DNA of 64,000 bases, from assembly GCA_037178675.1 (NCBI GenBank), contig JAYMGJ010000036.1:1-64000 (forward strand), given 5' to 3'. This document shows positions 8,451 through 57,169 of this stretch, one piece after another (position 1 is the stretch's first letter; the number at the start of each line of letters is the position of its first letter). Both the position numbers and the translations under genes were made by a program. The notes beneath the pieces were generated by a model. It worked only from the letters and a program-made list of their open reading frames with translations, made no database searches and was not told the origin of the DNA. Origin of the DNA: Scleroderma bovista. Its lineage: Eukaryota > Basidiomycota > Agaricomycetes > Boletales > Sclerodermataceae.

Positions 8451-9382
8451 TTCCTGGTAAATAATTAGTCAAACTCATATTGGTTTGTATCTAAACTAAC
8501 TCGTAACATCTTAGTGACACAGGTTTGAGTGTGTGTGAAGATAAGATAGACATGGAATAACTCAGTCCATCATGAAGGGAAGGTATTTGGTATGAAGGGC
8601 CACCTGTCTTCATTAAAGACTGAAATCTCCTGTCTTCGACAATCGAAAATGGACAAAGGCTTTTGGACACCCAGCAAAATCCACCACTTACTTTGTCTGC
8701 TCAGGAGTGTGTGCATGGTGAGAGTAAATTGTTTTCCCTCCTTTGATTCAAAGGCCATGGTAATGAATCCATCTTTAAGAATAGTTGTCTGGATCAGCCA
8801 CATGCACAAATCACTCCACAGCACGATTTCACCTGCTTTAGTCGATTATGAACTTAGTTTATAGTAGCATACAACTTTTGACCACAACAACTTTTTCCTA
8901 CCAACACACCCATCTACCCCAACTATATATCATCATAGGACCATGTGAAGGACACTGTGAGTGTTTCTGTATTCTTTTCAGCAACATACATACCCTTCTC
9001 CTTATATCAGATAGCATGATATCAAATAAATTCAGACAGTCTTTTCAGCATATTGACAGTGGTAATATGGATGTTATAAATGACTAGAAAGATGATGGGA
9101 GTTGATTCCTACACCCCAACATGTGTTCCTATGAATATACCCAGTGTGACTCTTCTCATCTTATATTGGTCTCAGAAAATTCAGGAGCATGTCACTGATA
9201 CCTGAAACATGTCTACCCCATATATATATCATCACAGGACTGTGGAAAGAACATTTGTGATGTACCTGTATTTTTTTGCGACAACACACACACCCTACTC
9301 CTCATACCTTACATTACTGTATCTAATAAATTCAGGAAGCTATTACAGATTGTTCAAATGGTTGTTATTGGGGTTTTTGAGG
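8451..9382. repeat. Mostly non-coding, with a ~299-bp-spaced tandem duplication
   Basis: A segment starting near 8913 (TCTACCCCAACTATATATCATC) recurs near 9212 (TCTACCCCATATATATATCATC), and the two stay similar for about 150-200 bp through ACACACACCCT...CTCCT and ATTCAGAC/ATTCAGGA. This is an old tandem duplication with a 299-bp period. A minus-strand frame at 8824-8570 has no recognisable motif. I see no supported gene here. Confidence 0.5.
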
Positions 9383-9611
9383 TCTCTGAAGATTATGGGA
9401 ATGGTCCTGAGCCTTGCAGAATATTTCCTAATAAGATGTGTTTCCAGTACCCAAGCATGCTTGCATCACCTGTAGAATATTATTCCGACCGCCGTTTTGT
9501 CTGAAACTTGGACTGGGACCTCCCAATTGGTCTATCTACCTCCTCCCATCATTACATTTCCCAAAAGATTGTTTACAGTTTGTAATTATAATTCCACCAC
9601 AGGCTGTATAA
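9383..9611. repeat. 229-bp duplicated segment, left copy
   Basis: This matches 56941-57169 in direct orientation with only about three differences. It lies at the left edge of the Penelope-like cassette. In the other copy it is followed by a minisatellite instead, so it marks one side of a rearranged duplication. Confidence 0.9.
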
Positions 9612-9840
9612 ATTCCCGATGCTATGGGATCCAATCAAATTGGACCGGGTAAGTAGTTTACCTATCCCTGACCCGTGACGGCTGTGTGTAGTGCCGCTCT
9701 GCCTCCTCCGACGGAGTTCTTGGCATCGGAGACGCTTGCCAGCTTGGTAGCGATTGGGCGATTAGGGTAGGCTATGCGAAACGTGTTCGTTTCAACCCCG
9801 TCGTTTGAGTTTCAGACTCAGCTTCGGATCATATATATAA

Positions 9841-9933
9841 GAGATAACGAAAGGGCTGACGAGGCAACAACGCCGAAAGGTCACCGGTCTTCTGTCCCCG
9901 CACAGGAACCACCTTCCCTTTCGCCTTCGTCTC
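9841..9933 (+). ncRNA. Hammerhead-ribozyme-like fold 1 (5' side of the Penelope-like element)
   Basis: The core CTGACGA at 9856-9862 and GAAA at 9875-9878 flank a 3-bp stem II (9863-9865 with 9872-9874). Stem I pairs 9848-9855 with 9916-9923 (8 bp) and continues past an internal loop with 9841-9844 pairing 9930-9933. Stem III closes 9878-9881 with 9911-9914 and extends as a longer hairpin (9886-9895 with 9902-9910). The predicted cleavage triplet is CTT, cutting between 9915 and 9916. All core positions of the C-U-G-A-N-G-A...G-A-A consensus are present. It lies about 110 nt upstream of the first in-frame ATG. Confidence 0.72.
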
Positions 9934-9955
9934 TCAGTCAGTAAGCTGGCTAATC

Positions 9956-9978
9956 GCAAAATCGCTTCGCGATTTTGC
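9956..9978. other. Perfect 10-bp hairpin upstream of the RT gene
   Basis: GCAAAATCGC at 9956-9965 and its exact complement at 9969-9978 enclose a 3-nt TTC loop. It sits just downstream of ribozyme-like fold 1, at the upstream edge of the open RT frame. It could act in RNA stability, translation initiation or priming; the sequence alone does not decide. Confidence 0.7.
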
Positions 9979-10043
9979 TCCCCCCTAACCACTCTCTCAT
10001 CCCAGCGGCTTGGGAAGACCTTAAGGATCGCTTGAGATGGCGC

Positions 10044-12272
10044 ATGCATTTCTTAGAGACCTCTCTATTTAATGACCAAATGCCTACACCGTTCGAACCA
10101 GACTACGACGTTCCTCGAACACGTAAGCCGTTCAATCAGGAACCAAATTATCTCCTTGAATGGGCACTCCGCGAAGGAGACCGTTATGTAGACTCTGTCT
10201 CTACGGCATGCCAAGCGGAGAGGAAGGTCGGCACCATCCGATCTCCCACCGTCACAGCCATTCAAAATTGGATTAAATCCAAGGGTTACGTCGTCACGCC
10301 GACAGACAAAAACCTAGGAGCCTGCGTAGTAACTGGTGACTGGCTCGATCGGGAGACCCGTAAATTAATCTTCGGACCAAATACGGGTTACCGAGCTCTT
10401 GGCGCCGACGAAGTCTCTGACTTCCTAAACGTCAAACTGAGCGAACTAAAGCAATCAGTGGACTACATCAAAGATGCACTCCACGACGAAGATACTAAGC
10501 AACTTTGCCAGTATCTCCGCCAGCATTTTCCGATGGAAGTCACCCCTGAAGGCATTCGTTTATCACAAACGAACATCACGAGGCAGATCAAACTTCCATC
10601 GTTCTATGGGATTCCTAAGGTACATAAGAAACCCATACGCATGCGACCGATTGCACCGTGCCATTCTGCACTACAGAATCCATTGGCCAAGTTCGTCTCA
10701 AAAACACTTAAACCGATCGTTGCATCTGAACCGTCCATTTGCAACGGGACAAAAGAGATTGCGCTTGAGTTAACTGGTTTAACTCTCCCACAATTTGTCC
10801 CCTTATGGTTAGTTGGTGGAGATATCGTCGCATATTACCCTAATATCGACGTAAAGCGGGCAGTTCATACGGTTACCCGCTTAACCAACATCGCGTTATG
10901 CGACCGGTTCCTACCGGCAAATCACGTCATCCGACGCCTGCCTAGGGACCATTGGTCACATATCCTTACCGCCGCTGTGTCTAACCTCGTCGTTGAGCAC
11001 AACGGTCTCCCATATCTCCAAACAAAAGGTATTGCAATGGGCGTTGCATGTTCTCCGGACATCGCGAACATTTATGCAATCGAAGCGGATCAGGAAATAA
11101 CGTCCCACCCCGCTGTATTATTTTACCGACGCTACATCGACGACATTTTTGCCGTCATCCAAGCGCCCACGGCCGCTGAGGCCCTGGACATTGCCAAGCA
11201 AAACTGGCATTTGGAAGGATGTTCCGTTGACTGGGCTACGCCGGGAAGATCCTTAGTCTTCCTGGACATGTTCATTTATCTCGATGAACACAATAAGGTT
11301 CAATGGAGACCTTACCGTAAGCCCGGTAACCACCTTGAGAGAGTTCCATGGGATTCTTCACACCCGTATGACGTTAAACGAGGAACGTTCATCGGAGAAT
11401 TATCCCGATTGGCGGTGTTGTCTAGTAAGCGGAACACTTACATGACTGCAGCTAAGAATCTCGCTGCCCTCTACCTTAGTAGAGGATACCCCGATCGCGT
11501 CGTCCGTAAGTGGTTGTCCGACCACATTCACACTCGTTGGGAAAACCGGTTTGCCATTAAAGCCGACAACGACGAGAAGGACATTATTGTCCTTAAGACC
11601 CACTTTAACGACGCTTGGAGCGATTTTTCCATATCGGAACTTCTTCGCCACATTAGTAAACCTCTCAAAGCTGTAAGCGACAGCTGGGAGAAGGGAGATT
11701 TCGTCATTAATAATGATGAAGAGCACCCCTTACGACGATGGCAGTTTCGGCTGCCGTTCTTCCCCGAAAGTTCACAGTTCCCGAAGGATGCTTTTCCGCT
11801 CCTTGATAGGGCGACCGTCCAGAAGGACCTGTGGCACGAGTACGAAGGAGACGTCGTCTATGGACCGGTCACTTATCTTGACCTCCATACACTACTTGTG
11901 GACAATTCGAAATGGGTCGTTTCCCGTAAGCGCACTAAGCGCCTCGGCGACCTTGCTCTTCTTTGGAAGAAGTCCGTCTTAGACACGTATCGGGAAGTGG
12001 AACCCGGCCCCTCTACGTACGATATCGTAATGGGAATCGACGCCGCTTATCGGCACGAACGTGATATGGATCGCTTAGCCATGGATGAAGCGGAATTACT
12101 AATGTCCCGCGCTGGATTCACGGTAGCCGATTGTATCTGCGGACCACCCTGGTCTGTCGGAATACTTCGGCAACCGCCCCCTCCGTTAGTACAGGATTGG
12201 CTTAAACGATTTAACGCCACCTGGGAGGATCCAGAACCGATTAGGCAACGCCGTCGCACAGCCCGAGATTGA
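10044..12272 (+). CDS. Penelope-like reverse transcriptase
   Basis: A single uninterrupted frame of 742 aa from the first in-frame ATG; the frame is open back to 9954 but without another ATG. It copies element RNA into DNA. Visible RT blocks in order: PTDKNLGACVV (the DK-type N-terminal motif of Penelope-like RTs), PSFYGIPKVHKKP (RT2 area), GGDIVAYYPNID (motif A, first catalytic Asp), KGIAMGVACSPDIANIYA (motif B), RRYIDDIF with YIDD at about residues 364-367 (motif C), and LVFLDMFIYL (motif D/E). The FYGxPKxHK signature is typical of Penelope-like RTs, not LTR or LINE types. About 350 aa follow the palm domain, with no GIY-YIG motif, as in endonuclease-deficient telomere-associated types. The lack of stops or frameshifts suggests recent activity. 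Confidence 0.85.
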   Translation: MHFLETSLFNDQMPTPFEPDYDVPRTRKPFNQEPNYLLEWALREGDRYVDSVSTACQAERKVGTIRSPTVTAIQNWIKSKGYVVTPTDKNLGACVVTGDWLDRETRKLIFGPNTGYRALGADEVSDFLNVKLSELKQSVDYIKDALHDEDTKQLCQYLRQHFPMEVTPEGIRLSQTNITRQIKLPSFYGIPKVHKKPIRMRPIAPCHSALQNPLAKFVSKTLKPIVASEPSICNGTKEIALELTGLTLPQFVPLWLVGGDIVAYYPNIDVKRAVHTVTRLTNIALCDRFLPANHVIRRLPRDHWSHILTAAVSNLVVEHNGLPYLQTKGIAMGVACSPDIANIYAIEADQEITSHPAVLFYRRYIDDIFAVIQAPTAAEALDIAKQNWHLEGCSVDWATPGRSLVFLDMFIYLDEHNKVQWRPYRKPGNHLERVPWDSSHPYDVKRGTFIGELSRLAVLSSKRNTYMTAAKNLAALYLSRGYPDRVVRKWLSDHIHTRWENRFAIKADNDEKDIIVLKTHFNDAWSDFSISELLRHISKPLKAVSDSWEKGDFVINNDEEHPLRRWQFRLPFFPESSQFPKDAFPLLDRATVQKDLWHEYEGDVVYGPVTYLDLHTLLVDNSKWVVSRKRTKRLGDLALLWKKSVLDTYREVEPGPSTYDIVMGIDAAYRHERDMDRLAMDEAELLMSRAGFTVADCICGPPWSVGILRQPPPPLVQDWLKRFNATWEDPEPIRQRRRTARD

Positions 12273-12582
12273 TCCGGTAGCTGGGATCCTGTGTACCCAC
12301 AGGACGCGTCAGCGCTCGTGTTTATCCGAATAAACATTGCCGCATTATCGGCTTTACCACTGATTTGGATATTCCTGCGAAGGAAAACCCAATTTAGGTC
12401 ATGAGCTTTATTTCCCATTGGTGCCCTGTTGTTTCAACGACACACCAGTGAGTCATGACCCGAAACAGCGGTGCCGATCATGCTCGGTTACATCAAATAT
12501 ACCCCGATAAGGGGTTATTATTCACACACTTGCCCTAAGTGTGTCAACATGGCACAACACACCCTACTATTATATAAGGGTG
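12273..12582. other. 3' non-coding region of the Penelope-like element
   Basis: No gene is visible. The region contains short inverted repeats, for example CCTGTG...CACAGG near 12289-12304 and CCCC-GATAA-GGGG near 12503, consistent with structured RNA between the RT stop and ribozyme-like fold 2. Confidence 0.4.
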
Positions 12583-12666
12583 ATGTAGAGAGCCACTGAA
12601 GAGTCAACCACCGACGAAAGCCCACCCCAGTGTTTACCACTTGAGGTGTCTTTGGCCACTCTACGT
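12583..12666 (+). ncRNA. Hammerhead-ribozyme-like fold 2 (3' side of the Penelope-like element)
   Basis: The core CTGAAGA at 12596-12602 and GAAA at 12616-12619 flank stem II (GTC 12603-12605 with GAC 12613-12615). Stem I pairs 12592-12595 with 12653-12656 and, after a small internal loop, 12583-12590 with 12659-12666. Stem III closes 12619-12620 with 12650-12651 and continues 12623-12626 with 12645-12648 and a distal hairpin. The predicted triplet is CTT, cutting between 12652 and 12653, the same triplet as fold 1. Sequences outside the core differ from fold 1 while the architecture is kept, which argues against chance. Confidence 0.72.
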
Positions 12667-12718
12667 GATTTGACTCGCTGAGTATAAAACCTACTACCCC
12701 CAGTCCGAAAGGGTGACA

Positions 12719-14034
12719 TTTTTTTCTTTTAAGTTGAATTATAGTGCTACGAGGTGTGACATGTGACACCCCATATTGCACTCTGCTAACAGTAAGGTGT
12801 GTAACTAAGGCCTCTGTGGCCTGACACTTCTCCTGACGCACGAATGCCCGGACTGTAAGGTCCCCCAGGGGTCCGCCGCGTTCCGCCGCACATTTTAGTC
12901 GTGCCGTCTGGCGAATTGGAGAAGAGTTCGTGGTCTGTCTGTCTGGGGTTCTGTTCAGACACGGTCCCGGCTGCTTAGTAATGAGTCTGTGGAACCAAGA
13001 GGGGATCAAGTGTACTACTCCGTACTTCCTGTGGCAAATTAGGGCCGTTTCCGCGTGTGTCCAACAGGTATGGACTTGGTGTTGGCGGCATGGTATGACA
13101 TGTCAGTTTGCGGGTGGGTGGAAGTGTGGTGGTATGCCGGTCTTGATCCAGGGTGTTGCGTCCCTCTTGAGTGGGTCGGGTTGAGCGGGGATCTGCAACG
13201 TTTGCATCGTCGGACAGGGACATTCAAGTCCCGGTGTTCTTCGTCATGTTCCATTTGGTAGTAGTATCTTTCTCCTATGTGACGGCACTTGTGGTGAGGA
13301 CACCTGTCCTTGCTGTTTGGCTTTTGCTCCTGTGGGGATCTGTGTCAGGGTTGTGTTATACTAAAGGCAGGCATCACCGAGTGGAGAAAGGAGTTGAGCA
13401 TGGGCTGAGTTGACGGCATGCTGCATGTTGCATAGGGCATGTTGAGATCTTTGTTACGTTTGGCGCTGCCCTGTGTGGGGTTGGGTCATCTAGGGTTGTT
13501 GCTTTTGGGGGGAGTGGGTATGTCGTCGAATACCAAGTGTAAGTGTTTTGTACTGTCTATATATCCGAACAACGCTTGTTGTGTTGTGCAGTCTTCCCAG
13601 ATAGGAGGTGAGAAGTTGATGTCATGTTTTGACCCAGCTTCTGTTGAAGTATGTGTCATTTCTGTCATACCTAGGGCAATCAAATAAGAAATGATGAACT
13701 TATTCTATTTGGTTGTCACCGCACTAAAGGCACATAGGAGTGGTGCTCTTCTTGATATGCTTGTTTAGCGGGATGTTGCCTGTACAGAGTTGAACATAGA
13801 TTGCTGTGTGTTTCTTCTTCAGGTGACCTGCGAGTCGTAGGAACAATTTTGGCGTGTGCGAGAAATCTAGCACTTCAATGTGGGTGGTCCTTCCAGTTTT
13901 CGCACCACCTTCTCTGGAGTTGGTTTTCGTGGGTCTGTTTGCAGAGGTGCTCAGTGGGAATTTCTGGTTTCCTTGTCGTCGAGGTCCTTCTTCTCTTGGA
14001 GGTGTCGGACCAGTTTTCTGAAATGGAACAGTAG
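12719..14034 (-). pseudogene. LINE-type retrotransposon 3' fragment (A), decayed
   Basis: On the minus strand the segment ends in an A-rich tail (T-run 12719-12725 on the plus strand). Near 13870-13720 a block reads LFLRLAGHLKKK...VQLCTGNIPLNKHI, resembling the region after RNase H in Tad-type LINEs, where a QLRTGHxPLNxHLxxI motif precedes a zinc-knuckle-like CxxC. Frameshifts and stops are frequent. The tail shares a motif family with the tails at 14066 and 49497. Confidence 0.5.
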
Positions 14035-16130: not shown

Positions 16131-16205
16131 ACGATCTAGGGGTTGCATTGACTCCGACTGTGCACCCACGGAGTACCGCTCCCTACGTTTCGCTGATAGG
16201 CACTG

Positions 16206-17070
16206 TTGCATTCGCGTGCGCTTGAAAACTCCCGGGATCAACCAAATTTACCCTGTACATCCGCCCAGAGGACGTCCAAGGCGACCACACTCGCTCCGCA
16301 TCTCGAGTATGACCTCCGTATCAATTTGGAGGAGGGCGCAAGCCCTCCGCTGGGTACTGTGTATTCCCTCTCCAAAACTGAATTAGAGGCGCTCCGAACT
16401 TTCTTCAATGAGCATCTTTCATACGGCTTCATCCAACAGTCGACCTCTGCTCATGGAGCCCCTGTCTTTTATGTCCATAAAAACGATGGATCACTCCGCC
16501 TTTGCGTTGATTACCGAATACAGAAAAAAATATTGAAAAAAGACCGCTACCCATTTCCCTTGATTTCAGATCTACTTGAATCTCCTAGCAAGGCTAAAAT
16601 CTACTCCAAGATTGATCTCCGCTATGCGTACCATTTGGTCTGCATCGCTGAAGGAGATGAGTGGAATACTGCGCTCCGCATGCGCTATGGGTCTTTCGAG
16701 TGGAACGTCATGCCATTCTGGCTGACCAATTCTCCTGTGGCTTTTCAAATATTTTTTAATAGTATCCTCTCTGACATGCTCAATGTCTGCATCATAATCT
16801 ACTTGGACGACATTCTCATCTACTCTGGAGACCTCAAGTCCCATCAAAAGCATGTCCGTGAAGTCCTCCAACGCCTCCGAGAGCATAACCTCTTGCCGTT
16901 GGGACGTCTACCCAAAAGAGGGGGATGGGGACTATTCTCGAGTAAATCTGCACAATCTCCGACCAATGTTCACCCAAGAACAACTTGCGTCCTCCCTCAG
17001 GGAAACCATCCTATTAACTCCGGAAATACGCGCCACTATCCTCATTGACATGGAGAAACACCAAAAATAC
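16206..17070 (+). pseudogene. Ty3/gypsy chromovirus pol, RT and start of integrase (copy 1, internally deleted)
   Basis: Residues from 16240 to about 16886 are a Ty3/gypsy RT: LRLCVDYRIQKK, KIDLRYAYHLVCIAEGDEWNTA, MPFWLTNSPVAFQ, and the catalytic YLDDILIYS at 16800-16826. Right after LREHNLL the sequence jumps to DVYPKEGDGDYSRVNLHNLRP, which in the related copy at 21400 lies between RNase H and the integrase zinc-binding region. More than 0.5 kb (rest of RT and RNase H) has therefore been deleted at about 16890. The frame is then split at 17070 by the foldback element and resumes at 18168. Confidence 0.8.
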
Positions 17071-40968: not shown

Positions 40969-43153
40969 TGTCATGCACCAAACATGTTTGGTACTGTGGA
41001 CATGGAGAAAGTTAGCCGATGAAACTAATGCGAAGAATGCACACCCAAGATCTGTTGAAAGATTGTCCCGACTTGAGGGATACAGACAGCCCTCGCTATC
41101 CATATCACGCAAAGTCAAGACTATCCTTATGTGAAGAATGAATACAAGCTCGTTGTAGCCATCTATCGCACAAGAATGACTATCCTGATGCGAGAGATGA
41201 ATGCCAACATGGACAGTCATCTATCGCACGAGAACCGCCAAGAAGCAGAAGAATCCAAGGATTGGTGATCATTTCAGTATGAGAGAGGAATGCAACCTAC
41301 TGCAGTCCAACTCCCATACCAGAACAACCAAAGTAGCAGAAGAAATGATAGAGAAACAAAGGAGAAAAGGAAGAATCATTTTTAGCGCCCAAATGTCAAA
41401 TTTAGGCGCCCAGTGCCGGCATTCCGATATTTTGAATAGCTCCACCATTTTTGAAGCTATCAATCATGTGACTATACCATCATGGAGCCTAGACCGTGGT
41501 CTATCTGCCTGTCAAGTTCCGACGTAAATCCGTTCATTTCCCATGGAGATATTCCACCCGCAATCCAGACACCTGCTTCATCACTCACTATGGAGTCCAC
41601 ATTTTCTCTGGAACATTTCTCCGCTATTGCAGCAGACCTCAACTATGTCCTGCTCTTGGGACAGCCTCTCCCTGAGCTCCTGTGTACTGTCTGGTACATA
41701 TCTTCCCAGCCTGCTCCCCCAGTACCTCTTGTTCTCGGTCAGTGTGTTCTCCTCGTCAGTCCTGCGTCACGCACATACTTTGGTTGTCTCAAGTCTATCG
41801 TTAGACTTGAAAATTCATACCTGGTCATCTCTGTGTCTCCTGAGTCCTCTGCATATGGTCCTTTCATCCCAGAGTCCTGTCACATCCATCTCCCTCTATC
41901 ATTCATCTCGCTTCCCTGGACACATCGAATCCGCTACTTGTGATTCTCTTCCCTGCTATCCCGCAACAAACACGAATGAAACAGTGCTCTAGAACCCTTC
42001 TTAGGAGCCCTAATAGAGTACAGAACCTTCCCCTTACTGCTCAAGGAAAGACTGCACTTCGGGAGCACCAAATTTCGCGTTTTTGCTCTACAGAAGCTCA
42101 ATCCAAGGGATTTGTGACACTCTGTGACCAGCTGTGACTCTACTTGTCATTCCAGGCCCCCTGACACTGCTCTTCTGGTCGGATCAATTCTTTTATTATC
42201 CCCCAGCCACTCCCATCAGTGGCACTGCTTCAGAAGCTCATCTCCAGATCTAAAGTTCAATAAATCATAGGTTGTGCTTCCCTTCTTTCTGAGTCACACA
42301 GAGTCACTCTGGCTCACTCTGACTCACTCTGCTGCGCATTATCCATCCCCTCTTGGCATTACTAATCCCCATTACTCCCCTTACCAATCACTTACCAATC
42401 ATCCTTCAAATCATGCTTATCATGCTGCTTATCAATTCATGACTCATGCCCCTATGATTCATATGCATTATGTCATCGCATATGCTCATTTAGCTTTGAT
42501 CTACTCATCCCATGCTTTCCCCCCCTCTCTTTTGGGCCCCATGCAATGATTTTTCCATATTCTTGGTTATACACCCCTTTTTACCTATGTTTTTGCTCTT
42601 TCCCTTGGCTCAGCAGCTTGTTCAGGCTTTCCCCATCGATGACTCAGCCTGATTACACTGCTTATCAATTGCTTACCAATTTCTTACCAATCTCTTACCA
42701 AGCACTTAGTCATTTGTGCTTACAGGGCCACAGCCCCTCCTGTATATAAACCAGCAGCCAAAGGCTGCAAGGAAGTGTCTGCTTCCCCCTCAATAAAGCG
42801 ACCACATTCACTCTCCCTCACTGTCTATAAGCTCCCTCTTTGTCTTTGGACTTGTAGGTCACCCAGTGCTGGCCTAAAGCTCCTATATTGCTGTTTATCA
42901 GATATATCTTGTATCTGATCATTTCTCTAGGCTGAAGCGCAGTCTAGCATCTCTGTCCACTCTATCCCATCACTGTCCATCGCATTCTTGAAGCAGGAAC
43001 TGTCCCCTTGCTTCCCTGTTGCTCCATCACTGCTGTTACACCCCTGTCATCAATCTATCATCACTCTTCAATCCGGAAGACCACCACTCGCATTTTGCTG
43101 TCATTTGTGTTGGTTGTTGGTTGTTCTGACCTCTTCCCTCACTTAGGCGCACA
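40969..43153 (+). mobile_element. Long LTR-like element, type I, copy A
   Basis: It begins TGTCATGCACCAAACATGTTTGG (with a 16-bp palindrome, ACCAAACATGTTTGGT) and ends CTTAGGCGCACA. At about 42750 is a TATA box (TGTATATAAACC), followed by a small hairpin (GCAGCC...GGCTGC) and AATAAA near 42791. This is the order expected for U3, R and polyadenylation signal in a ~2.2-kb LTR. A conserved reading frame lies in the U3 part. No 5-bp target duplication is visible (CACGG left, CCGGC right). Its 3' end abuts the RT fragment at 43154. Confidence 0.75.
41590..41943 (+). CDS. Conserved LTR-embedded reading frame, copy A
   Basis: A frame from ATG 41590 (upstream ATG also at 41482) encodes MESTFSLEHFSAIAADLNYV and continues with QPLPELLCTVWYISSQPAP and SVSPESSAYGPFIPESCHI. 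The same protein, with substitutions but no stop, is present in copies B, C and D of the element. Function unknown; no known fold is recognised. Confidence 0.4.
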   Translation: MESTFSLEHFSAIAADLNYVLLLGQPLPELLCTVWYISSQPAPPVPLVLGQCVLLVSPASRTYFGCLKSIVRLENSYLVISVSPESSAYGPFIPESCHIHLPLSFISLPWTHRIRYL

Positions 43154-44256
43154 CCGGCAAAGTTAATTTAACTAGGTGTCCTCCTGAGTGCAAGTCACTC
43201 TTAGAGACACGCTTTGCTAAGTTATTACGAGAAAACGAATCTCAGGAAACTTGGGTACAAGCTTTAAAAGCTCATGAATCAAAGGTCGCTATTGATGAGT
43301 CGACCCTAGAGGAAGCTCAGAAACAGGTGCCTAAAGAATACTGGGAGTTCTTAGACGTATTTAGTAAAAAGTCGTCAGAGCGCATGCTGCTAAGAAAACC
43401 TTGGGATCATGGAATTGATCTAAAAGAAGACTTCCTGCCCAAAAAGGGAAGACTTATCCTGCTCTCTGTTGATGAACAAAAAGAAGTCGAATTGTTCCTT
43501 GATGATCAACTTGCTAAAGGATATATTCGGCCTTCTATTAGTCAGCAGACGTCACCGGTCTTCTTTATCCTGAAAAAGGACGGCAAGAAGCGCATGGTAC
43601 AGGATTACCGTTATGTAAACAACTGGACGATTAAGAATAACTATCCGCTGCCGCTTATCTCTCAGCTTGTTGACAAGCTTAAGGGTTGTAAGCTCTTCAC
43701 GAAAATGGATCTTCGTTGGGGTTACAATAATGTGAGGATCCGCGAAGGCGATGAGTGGAAAGCTGCGTTTGTAACGCACAAAGGGGCTTTCAAGCCATTA
43801 GTTATGTATTTCGGTCTCTGTAATTCACCCGTGACATTCCAGAAAATGATGAATGAAATCTTCCACGATATGTCGGATGTCTGCGTGGTGTATATCGACG
43901 ACCTTATGATATTTACGGATACGGACGATCAGGAAAGGCATGATAGAATCGTGCTGGAAGTTTTGAAACATTTACGTGATAACGATTTGTTTGTCAAACC
44001 CGAAAAGTGTCGCTTCCGAGTCACCGAAGTCAACTTCCTCGGAATGATCGTGTCATGTGAGGGTATCAAAATGGACCCTGAAAAAGTTAATGCTATTTTG
44101 AAGTGGCCTGAGCCAACGAACGTAAAGCAGGTTCGCGCGTTCCTCGGTCTCGGCAATTTCTATAGACTCTTCATTAAAGATTATGCGATCATGGCTAGGC
44201 CCATGATGGACCTTACGTGTAAAGATACGGTATTTAACTTTGGAGAAAAGGAACAC
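43154..44256 (+). pseudogene. Ty3/gypsy RT fragment between two inverted LTR-like elements
   Basis: The frame is open from about 43163 to the LTR-like border at 44256 (ATG at 43327). It contains PKEYWEFLDVFSKKSSERM (pre-RT), YIRPSISQQTSPVFFILKKDGKKRMVQDY, LFTKMDLRWGYNNVRI, MYFGLCNSPVTFQ, the catalytic YIDDLMIFT near 43891, LFVKPEKCRF, VNFLGMIVSCEG and AFLGLGNFYRLFIKDY. It breaks at the start of RNase H (VFNFGEKEHC). There are no stops and many CG dinucleotides, so this piece decayed little, although it lacks gag, RNase H and integrase. The family differs from copies 1 and 2. Confidence 0.82.
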
Positions 44257-46298
44257 TGTGAGTCAAAGTGTGGACTTGGGTCGGAGTAATAACCCAAACA
44301 CAACACCAACAAAGGACTACGAAAATGTGCAAGTGGTGGTTTACCTCCGCGGTGTCCAGAGAGGATGTGCTGAGGAGGGGGGAAGGGGATCTACACCAAC
44401 AGGGTGATGCAGACGGTGATGCAGGATACTCCTGGGGTACAGGAGTAATAGAGGACGAAGGGGATAGGGGTCTGGACTCTTCCTAAAGCCTAGGAAGTTG
44501 TCAAAGCAGGGATTGGGTAGACTGAGACTGAAACAGTGATACTACACCTAGAGATTGGTGCAGCAAAGGGGCAGGGATGCCTCTGATGTCCAGAGGCGAG
44601 GAAGATTGACTGGTATGAAGCCTAGACTCCGCTTGAGCCTAGTATAAAGAATAGATCTTGAATAACTTGGATAAACTTGACAATATTGAGCCTTTAGACC
44701 TTCACTGAAGCCTACAAGGACTCAAAGACTGAAGGGATACTGATTGAGAGAGTCTGAGAGAGGGATAATTTCGTGCAATTGGGTCTTCTATCACTGGGCT
44801 GAGCCCAGGGGTTTAAATACATGGGGGGGCACAGCATTAAAGTACAAAAAGAGAAGGGAGTAAGCAGAATTTGTCAAGGATTGGTAAGGGATTGGTAAGA
44901 GCTTTGTAAGGGGTTTGTAAGCGATCAGTAAGGGATAAGCAGGAATGAGTAAGCATAGGAAGCATGAATAAGCTGCTGAGTAAAGGAATGAGTAAGCTGC
45001 ATGACAAGATTGATTGGTAAGGGAGTGAGTCATCAGCTGAGTAATATACCAAAAATGCGAAAGGGATAGAGTAATACTGATGACAAGAGAGCATCAGTAA
45101 GCAAGGGATGAGTCACTGCACAGCAGAAGGAGTCATTGATGCACAGCCTAAGAAGTTTGATGGGGGGGCTGTGTACCATCAGGAATTTGATGGGACAACA
45201 ATGGGGAAGATCTGGGATTAATAGGTGGATTGATCCGAGACAAAACAGCCACAAGAAGGGTACCAGGGGTCCAGAGGTCTTTTTGGGGGGTCAGCATACA
45301 CTAAGGTATAGTGCATGTGTTCTAGCACCGCTGAAGCGCAACCATGGGCTCCCTTGACGAGCTCTGTTCTGGGAAAGAACGAGAGAGGGTTCTTCTTCCT
45401 AATAGCACTATAAAGTGGGGGGAATAACTGTCATGGTGCTGGGGGACGTCGTCTGAAAGTAGGGAAGCGGATAGAGTATTGAATTCGACGCATCCAGGGA
45501 AGTGAGACGAACGACAGAGGAAGATGGACATGGCAAGTATCTGGGAGGAAGGGACCATAGGCTGAGGGCTCAGGGGACACAGAGACGACCAGAGAAGACT
45601 TCTCAAGCTTGACAATAGACCTAAGATGACCAAAGTACGTCCTTGATGCAGGACTGACGAGGAGAACGCGCTGACCGAGAACGAGAGGGACTGAGGGAGC
45701 AGGCTGGGAAGATATGTGCCAGGCAGTGCACGGGAACTCTGGGAGAGGCTGTCCTAAGAGCAGGACATAGTGGAGATCTGCAGCAATAGCGGAGAAATGA
45801 TCCAGAGAAAATACGGACTCCATAGTGAGCGATGAAGCGAACGTCTGGATTGCAGGGGGAATATCTCCGTGGGAAATGAACGGATTTGCGTCGGAACTTG
45901 ACAGGCAGATAGACCACGCTCTAGGCTTTCTGACGGTATAGTTACGTGCCTGATAGCTTCAGAAACGATGGAGCTATTCAAAATATCGGAATGCCGGCAC
46001 TGGGCGCCTAAAAATGACATTTGGGCGCTAAAAATCATTTCTTCTCTTTCTCCTTCGTTTCTCCATCAATTCTTCGGCTTCTTTGATCGTTCTGGTATGG
46101 GAGTTGGACTGCAGACGTGTGCATTCCTTTCTCATACCACAATTGACGTTATTCCTTCAGTTTCTTCTGCTTCTTGGCGGTTCTCGTGCGATAGATGGCT
46201 ACAATGAGGGTCCGTTGTGCTTATCCTTCGCATAAGGATCATTCGATATAGGCATTATCTTCCATGTTCACTGTACCAAACCTGTTTGGTGCGTGACA
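44257..46298 (-). mobile_element. Long LTR-like element, type II, copy C (inverted)
   Basis: In its own (minus) orientation it starts TGTCACGCACCAAACAGGTTTGG at 46298 and ends CACTTTGACTCACA at 44257. It is the same architecture as copy A, with a U3 reading frame and the stretch ACCACCACTTGCAC before the end. The outer flanks of A and C are complementary (CACGG before A, CCGTG after C), so the palindrome extends a few bases beyond the LTR ends. Confidence 0.75.
45431..45823 (-). CDS. Conserved LTR-embedded reading frame, copy C
   Basis: 130 codons from an ATG at 45823: MESVFSLDHFSAIAADLHYV, then WHISSQPAPSVPLVL and PASRTYFGHLRSIVKLE. It aligns along its length with copies A, B and D and is closest to D. 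Confidence 0.4.
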   Translation of the reverse strand: MESVFSLDHFSAIAADLHYVLLLGQPLPEFPCTAWHISSQPAPSVPLVLGQRVLLVSPASRTYFGHLRSIVKLEKSSLVVSVSPEPSAYGPFLPDTCHVHLPLSFVSLPWMRRIQYSIRFPTFRRRPPAP

Positions 46299-56940: not shown

Positions 56941-57169
56941 TCTCTGAAGATGATGGGAATGGTCCTGATCCTTGCAGAATATTTCCTAATAAGATGTGTT
57001 TCCGGTACCCAAGCATGCTTGCATCACCTGTAGAATATTATTCCGACCGCCGTTTTGTCTGAAACTTGGACTGGGACCTCCCAATTGGTCTATCTACCTC
57101 CTCCCATCATTACATTTCCCAAAAGATTGTTTACAGTTTGTAATTATAATTCCACCACAGGCTGTATAA
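56941..57169. repeat. 229-bp duplicated segment, right copy
   Basis: Direct copy of 9383-9611 (offset 47558). Its last 26 bp, ATTATAATTCCACCACAGGC and on, are duplicated once more in tandem before the minisatellite begins. Confidence 0.9.

Follow-up and report, generated by a model that had tools for sequence, protein, structure and literature searches.

What does it mean when a reverse transcriptase (RT) gene lies between two self-cleaving ribozymes? The question arises in a stretch of 64,000 nucleotides (nt) from the fungus Scleroderma bovista, here called the window (contig C36:1-64000 of the 51.8-Mb assembly to which all genome counts refer), where a Penelope-like RT gene has a hammerhead-like fold on either side. 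An initial annotation took the pair to bracket one intact element that trims its RNA at both ends. We consider a different explanation the best as a whole and a likely one: two endonuclease-less Penelope-like retrotransposons are stacked here, each with its own type I hammerhead in its 3' tail. The stack probably lies near a chromosome end. Judged by sequence matches, each hammerhead is the 3'-tail ribozyme of its own family, and the two do not enclose a single intact element; the arrangement appears as an ordinary stacking of insertions.

The two hammerhead folds

Both folds lie at the positions first annotated. They contain the core CUGANGA ... GAA, A15.1-U16.1 and a cleavable NUH triplet, which is CTT in each, as first annotated. 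In fold 1, C3 lies at 9856, the 3-bp stem II is GGC/GCC, stem I has an inner helix (CGAAAGGG/CCCTTTCG) separated by an internal loop from an outer one, and the CTT ends at 9915. Fold 2 has C3 at 12596, an equally short stem II (GTC/GAC), a stem I that combines GCCA/TGGC with GTAGAG/CTCTAC, and a CTT ending at 12652, which sets the predicted cuts 2737 nt apart, the spacing given at the outset. Stem I is open-ended and stems II and III are loop-closed in both (constrained folds and cross-family model), the arrangement of type I hammerheads. A structural descriptor that tolerates internal loops in stem I and stem III picks out exactly these two folds in the window and none in 40 Markov shuffles of 64 kb; a stricter descriptor finds fold 1 only, with one hit in 50 such shuffles.

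Could the folds be chance matches? The Rfam hammerhead models, to which the initial annotation looked for recognition, give no match at either one: release 15 has none at gathering level in the window, the three weak matches at E up to 10 within 9600-12900 fall elsewhere, and RF00163 has none above its cut-off in the whole assembly. Folding energies are ordinary against shuffles (z -1.78 and -1.04), and the unconstrained minimum-energy fold is not exactly a hammerhead, the hammerhead-constrained fold lying within 1.5 kcal/mol of it in both cases. Searches returned no sequence match in PDB and only sub-cut-off matches in NCBIfam. Against chance, besides the empty shuffles, stands a covariance model of our own, trained on eight sequences of types B2, B3 and B4 (sequence types of hammerhead tails), none of them from the window and none of family A or B1. 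It ranks fold 1 first in the window (57.7 bits, E 1e-17) and fold 2 second (21.2 bits, E 7.4e-5), with E-values that the tool itself flags as rough. Two rows left out of its alignment because they were shifted, B3 of L049 and B5 of L046 (L numbers denote loci fetched from the assembly), were later recovered by the model. Next in rank, both at E 0.16, come hits at 41013 and 49881, whose core is incomplete and which are apparently copies of each other.

The stems also covary between related copies, as the initial annotation had anticipated. Over 20 distinct matches, in an alignment that was fitted to the model and includes two E 0.16 matches, 99.6% of cells are paired and 8 of 13 pairs have changed on both sides, against a shuffled mean of 4.0 (1 of 500 shuffles reached 8); when the structure is slid along this alignment, every shifted version scores far worse. 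The eight training rows by themselves are 100% paired, with two-sided changes in 3 of 13 pairs, a figure reached by 77 of 500 shuffles. Stem II itself varies between types as GGC/GCC, GAC/GTC and GTC/GAC. Genome-wide, the core pattern CTGANGAGNC...GNYGAAAG matches 81 times but only twice when reversed, and its extension to CTT has 123 raw matches, nested duplicates included, against none reversed. The 81 sort by sequence into six types: A (11), B1 (15), B2 (18), B3 (35) and single variants on C127 and C625. Both folds are thus confirmed as hammerhead-type by descriptors and cross-family model; for the fold a chance origin can be taken as refuted, with a residual probability that is practically nil, and activity is a prediction.

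Two families at one locus

The sequence around fold 1 (9609-9990) is 98-99% identical to the B1 tails in L010, L015, L016, L025 and L026, and B1 tails match the genome in 14 rows at 96-100% over their last 249-251 nt, plus partial rows. The family A match across copies, by contrast, starts at 9987 and ends at 12699. The full-length unit of family A measures 4165 bp and is repeated head to tail in C238; its open frame has 1238 codons, or 1233 when counted from the first ATG. The window copy, described at first as intact, is 5'-truncated: the first 461 of 1233 residues and the start codon are gone, and window residue 37 corresponds to residue 498 of the full protein. At the junction, the CCCCCCTAAC of B1 passes into the native CCAACCACTC of A through a 3-4 nt microhomology (AACC), and truncated A copies are joined to B-type tails at other points in L008, L010 and L013. 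Among the repeats listed, no pair connects the two folds, and a ribozyme type common to both ends was considered and rejected, the tails belonging to different families. The difference between the two folds reflects their origin in two families, one stacked on the end of the other.

Assignment of the RT to the Penelope type is suggested by a weak RVT_1 match (below cut-off, E 3e-5, Pfam), the motif YIDD and fungal relatives; the few named relatives among the best 120 of 269 are proteins of Fibroporia, Armillaria, Psilocybe and Agaricus annotated as uncharacterized, hypothetical or RT-domain. Pfam recognises no GIY-YIG endonuclease at E up to 1 in four long open reading frames (ORFs; from A, B1, B3 and B2), in agreement with the endonuclease-less RT first described. 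Each element has one long sense ORF, and the B unit measures about 4.7 kb from hammerhead to hammerhead.

The same division into families holds across the genome. The ORF at 9954-12272 has 34 RT matches in the assembly, of which 31 (13 A, 18 B) were used to count distances to hammerheads, three distant ones on C263 being left out. In family A, 11 of the 13 matches are followed by a hammerhead at a distance of 326-328 nt (one exception is interrupted, the other is cut short where its contig ends); in family B, 14 of the 18 are, at 1405-1559 nt. The remaining 56 of the 81 hammerheads have no RT match within 2 kb ahead, as expected of 5'-truncated insertions. Eleven B copies are full-length, reaching query residue 10 or 11; two of these stand at contig starts, and all nine assessable ones have a same-family hammerhead upstream, with a tail-body junction that is constant within each type. 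Among truncated copies with a same-strand hammerhead within 2.6 kb upstream (n = 8), that hammerhead is of another family in every case, and the window locus belongs to this class. Since C12 and C193 share one arrangement and C836 has an intervening repeat, some of the eight are not independent and some are not direct joins. As for position, the nearer contig end lies within 20 kb on the 5' side of 50 of 77 placed hammerheads and on the 3' side of 20, both ends being more than 20 kb away from the other 7; four hammerheads are unplaced and several contigs are shorter than 40 kb.

The distant RT on C263 forms a repeat of its own (C263:1-8500, L042), with 26% identity to the window RT and three matches at an exact spacing of 7973 bp. 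A hammerhead there was not accepted, one loose core match having no fitting fold. An ORF downstream of this RT matches the exonuclease RNase_T, which recalls the accessory exonucleases reported for Terminons (PMC6431247).

Tails, templates and mechanism

B tails run in the order TATA box, hammerhead, hairpins and telomere-complementary CCCCCCTAAC. A TATA-type box starts 20-25 nt before C3, counting the outermost match, in 25 of 25 distinct hammerheads (drawn from 56 instances in fetched loci, overlapping loci being counted repeatedly), and the same motif set occurs in 336 of 20000 random 60-nt background windows. From the cut to CCCCCCTAAC or a variant of it there are about 67-74 nt with hairpins, and a further CCCTAA often precedes the next truncated element. 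In B1, B2 and B3 the telomere complement stands at the 3' end, where it meets either telomeric repeats or older, truncated copies; the C127 variant has a diverged 3' end, and one locus stops short. A tails have a short hairpin and CCCTACTACCC or a variant about 36 nt after the cut, and their flanks vary between copies. The B-type tail as a whole (about 1 kb) has several conserved blocks, among them one at 9679-9751 of the window, about 105-177 nt upstream of the hammerhead core and 84-90% identical between B types in short matches. Between ORF and tail, B1 and B3 also carry a degenerate telomere-like tract of CCTAACC and CCCTAACC (L015:3815-3915, L019:3837-3935). Stacking can be dense: within about 670 nt, L048 (C8:440-1110) holds four tail pieces, two of B1 (one longer, one short) and two of B3, separated by CCTAAC/CCCTAA runs, and a B3-B3 junction near the start of the reverse strand of L018 shows a duplication of about 64 nt that covers the post-cut tail and the body start.

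Which RNA was copied into these insertions? The last 251-252 nt of one B1 and one B3 tail were compared with the genome, giving 39 and 44 rows (83 in all), where a row is a local alignment whose start may shift by a few bases and which is not always a separate insertion. The tail end, which lies 73-79 nt beyond the cut, is reached to within 4 nt by 37 of 39 rows for B1 and 40 of 44 for B3, or 77 of 83; 74 of these (36 and 38) span the cut, and the remaining three start about 20-40 nt downstream of it. None of the 83 rows begins within 3 nt of the ribozyme cut. Because the rows run past the cut and none starts there, the RNA that served as B template was not cut at its 3' ribozyme, or had been rejoined there. 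For the same reason self-trimming at both ends is disfavoured as a transposition route. Could the window still hold a single element whose RNA the two hammerheads trim to a 2737-nt transposition unit? Both folds are competent on paper and correctly spaced for it, but they belong to different families, B-type tails meet truncated A copies at other points in other loci, and the tail rows pass the cut; we regard this reading as very improbable. Of the initial annotation, then, the RT, the folds, their triplets and their spacing stand; the intactness and the single element do not, and trimming at both ends is unsupported as a transposition step.

The 5' side can be followed in the eight full-length B copies in which the tail upstream does not belong to a complete neighbour. 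The upstream-tail matches start at 94, 94, 303 and 962 with the B1 query and at 146, 158, 158 and 731 with the B3 query; seven of the eight start before the TATA box and none at the cut. If tail and body share one template, this RNA was uncut at its 5' ribozyme too, and in seven of eight cases it began upstream of its own TATA box. Five of these eight partial tails start within the degenerate telomere-like tract, which may be a landing or stop site. An enrichment of tail 5' ends just past the TATA box was also considered (row starts at 94, 112, 117, 135, 135, 137 and 157) and dropped, the starts looking by eye like mere scatter.

How would such a stack arise? Family A would have landed first and lost its 5' part; a B1 copy would have been added later, its 3' end placed onto the broken 5' end of A, and would itself have been truncated to its tail. 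The CCCTAA stretch may pair with an exposed telomeric G-strand and so prime reverse transcription. The B tail would act as a module of TATA box, hammerhead, hairpins and telomere-complement end, and since an array puts the tail of one copy upstream of the next, an arrangement seen in the loci, the module could serve both as 5' promoter and as 3' end. RNA polymerase II starts 25 nt or more after a TATA box. The start implied here would fall inside the ribozyme, and self-initiated RNA would therefore lack a working upstream ribozyme: if the box is a promoter, the element's own transcript would be without the 5' half of the upstream fold, and a cut at 9915 would be open only to RNA that entered from farther upstream. 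Read-through and multimeric RNA is the most likely substrate of the hammerhead, which would cut it at the tail, the copied RNA being the uncut fraction. The same-family tail that full-length B copies carry upstream, cut site included, may then come from one continuous template.

A circular template would explain part of this differently. Hammerhead cleavage and religation could yield unit-length RNA circles, and reverse transcription from CCCTAA over more than one lap would leave a full copy behind a partial same-family tail, as is found in all nine assessable full-length B copies; the scattered tail starts, seven of eight upstream of the TATA box, and the 4165-bp tandems of family A fit as well. 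Uncut transcripts of genomic tandems or recombination within arrays would give the same arrangement, and we think circles unlikely. A scheme that joins these elements, with the B tail as promoter, ribozyme and telomere docking site, a start inside the ribozyme that spares the element's own RNA from 5' cutting while read-through RNA is cut, and ribozyme-made circles templated for more than one lap, is quite unlikely in its entirety. Or could the fold be retained as a structural element that binds the RT or presents the RNA end, cleavage being incidental or rare? Inserted copies do come from RNA uncut at the 3' ribozyme, and uncut B templates fit a report on a Penelope-like element of Anolis, where mutating the ribozyme left insertion in vitro unaltered and cleavage needed protein (PMC11167929); a review, moreover, credits the fold with exposing telomeric complements (PMC6431247). 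The catalytic core and a cleavable CTT are nevertheless kept in six types, though the search patterns demanded the core and one of them also the CTT. A structural role of this kind is possible, if doubtful.

Several points weigh against the stack of two ribozyme-bearing telomeric elements that we prefer. Rfam recognises neither fold, which is read here as a limit of its model rather than loss of the fold; self-cleavage at either site is a prediction from the fold. As the search pattern demands the core letters, their conservation is partly by construction, and two variants joined the TATA motif set after the sequences had been viewed. In family B, the core pattern finds no hammerhead downstream of four of the 18 RT matches. 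Family A ends in merely CCTACTACCC-like, telomere-like sequence with diverse 3' flanks, and its array in C238 runs opposite to chromosome-end expectation. The nearer contig end is on the "wrong" side of 20 of the 77 placed hammerheads, and a pattern search of the assembly found no (CCCTAA)4, so that contig ends are not proven telomeres. Subtelomeric duplication may also have multiplied arrangements, and counts across copies are consequently not independent.

For the B tails, then, the genomic record answers part of the cleavage question, the copied RNA being uncut or rejoined at the 3' ribozyme. Many of the 81 core matches in the assembly, which fall into six types, have insertion junctions that can be read, and the distance from TATA box to ribozyme provides a testable spacing rule. 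The features of the locus are collected in Table 1.

Table 1. Features of the stacked elements and their surroundings in the window
Feature	Positions	Strand	Remarks
3' end of another interspersed repeat	8500..9611	+	Common 3' end ...CACCACAGGCTGTA among copies, variable 5' start; abuts the B1 tail
3' tail of Penelope-like family B1, 5'-truncated, separate insertion event	9609..9990	+	98-99% match to other B1 tails
TATA-type box TATATAAG of B1 tail	9834..9841	+	Starts 22 nt before C3; putative promoter
Type I hammerhead, family B1 (fold 1)	9839..9935	+	Predicted cut 9915/9916; descriptor, constrained fold, covariance model
Hairpin GCAAAATCGC/GCGATTTTGC downstream of B1 cut	9956..9978	+	Part of the B1 tail
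CCCCCCTAAC, complement of TTAGGG-type telomeric repeats	9980..9989	+	3' end of the B1 insertion, junction with family A
Penelope-like family A copy, 5'-truncated	9987..12699	+	DNA match to other A copies; full unit 4165 bp, tandem in C238
Open frame, 772 codons, RT motif YIDD at 11133	9954..12272	+	First in-frame ATG 10044
TATA-type box TATATAAG of A tail	12571..12578	+	Starts 25 nt before C3; putative promoter
Type I hammerhead, family A (fold 2)	12585..12665	+	Predicted cut 12652/12653; descriptor, constrained fold, covariance model
Family A 3' end: hairpin ACTCGCTGAGT, then ATAAAACCTACTACCC	12673..12699	+	Telomere-like, non-repeat; flanks of copies diverge about here

Other repeats surround the stack. 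The 3'-anchored repeat that abuts the B1 tail occurs again at 56941-57169, and its 3' end adjoins truncated Penelope-like copies in L009, L025, L027, L029 and the window; it may thus take part in the stacking. Window segments at about 41.0-43.0 kb and 49.8-52.0 kb are direct diverged duplicates that carry the E 0.16 covariance-model hit, and those at 44.3-46.2 kb and 53.2-55.1 kb are inverted diverged duplicates; pieces of both pairs are 84-96% identical. Further RT fragments with strong RVT_1 matches, outside the present finding, lie at 16200-17042 and 43147-44283. A neighbouring ORF has its best named relatives among hypothetical proteins of Scleroderma, Boletus, Melanogaster and Pisolithus, which points to a host probably in the Boletales.

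Relation to known systems

The stacked elements fall in a known class, that of endonuclease-less telomeric Penelope-like elements with 3' hammerheads. With the Terminons and Athena elements of bdelloid rotifers they share an endonuclease-deficient RT, a hammerhead at the 3' end with, in family B, a telomere complement behind it, and arrays, head-to-tail or interspersed, that contain 5'-truncated copies, as reviewed for those elements (PMC6431247). They differ in their fungal host, in units of about 4-5 kb, in complements of CCCTAA rather than ACACCC/TCACCC and, in type B tails, in the 67-74 nt with hairpins between cut and complement. The giant unit and accessory ORFs of Terminons are absent from A and B, which have a single long sense ORF per element.

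The endonuclease-deficient Penelope-like elements of fungi are named Coprina. Host group and lack of an endonuclease are the grounds on which the present families are likened to them. Hammerheads in fungal Penelope-like elements were reportedly described by Cervera and De la Pena in 2014; the other literature passages searched contain no description of them. According to a 2013 paper, fungal genomes hold only endonuclease-deficient Penelope-like elements (PMC3846280). Five type 3 hammerheads found with Rfam are reported from Pleurotus, in passages that state no link to Penelope-like elements (PMC5040776). Penelope-type hammerheads are usually minimal in reviews, without helix III (PMC7761336, PMC6155905), whereas stem III is well developed here.

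Penelope and Poseidon elements with an endonuclease and pseudo-LTRs (long terminal repeats) likewise have the ORF between repeated tails; the Anolis element has a hammerhead (PMC11167929), and a putative TATA box is described in a rotifer pseudo-LTR (PMC3846280). Unlike these, the elements studied here have no GIY-YIG domain found by Pfam, and their B 3' junctions lie at telomere-like sequence. HeT-A of Drosophila is a non-LTR element that is not known to have a hammerhead or telomerase repeats. Its likeness to the B tails is one of arrangement, a promoter in the 3' end that faces the downstream neighbour in a chromosome-end array.

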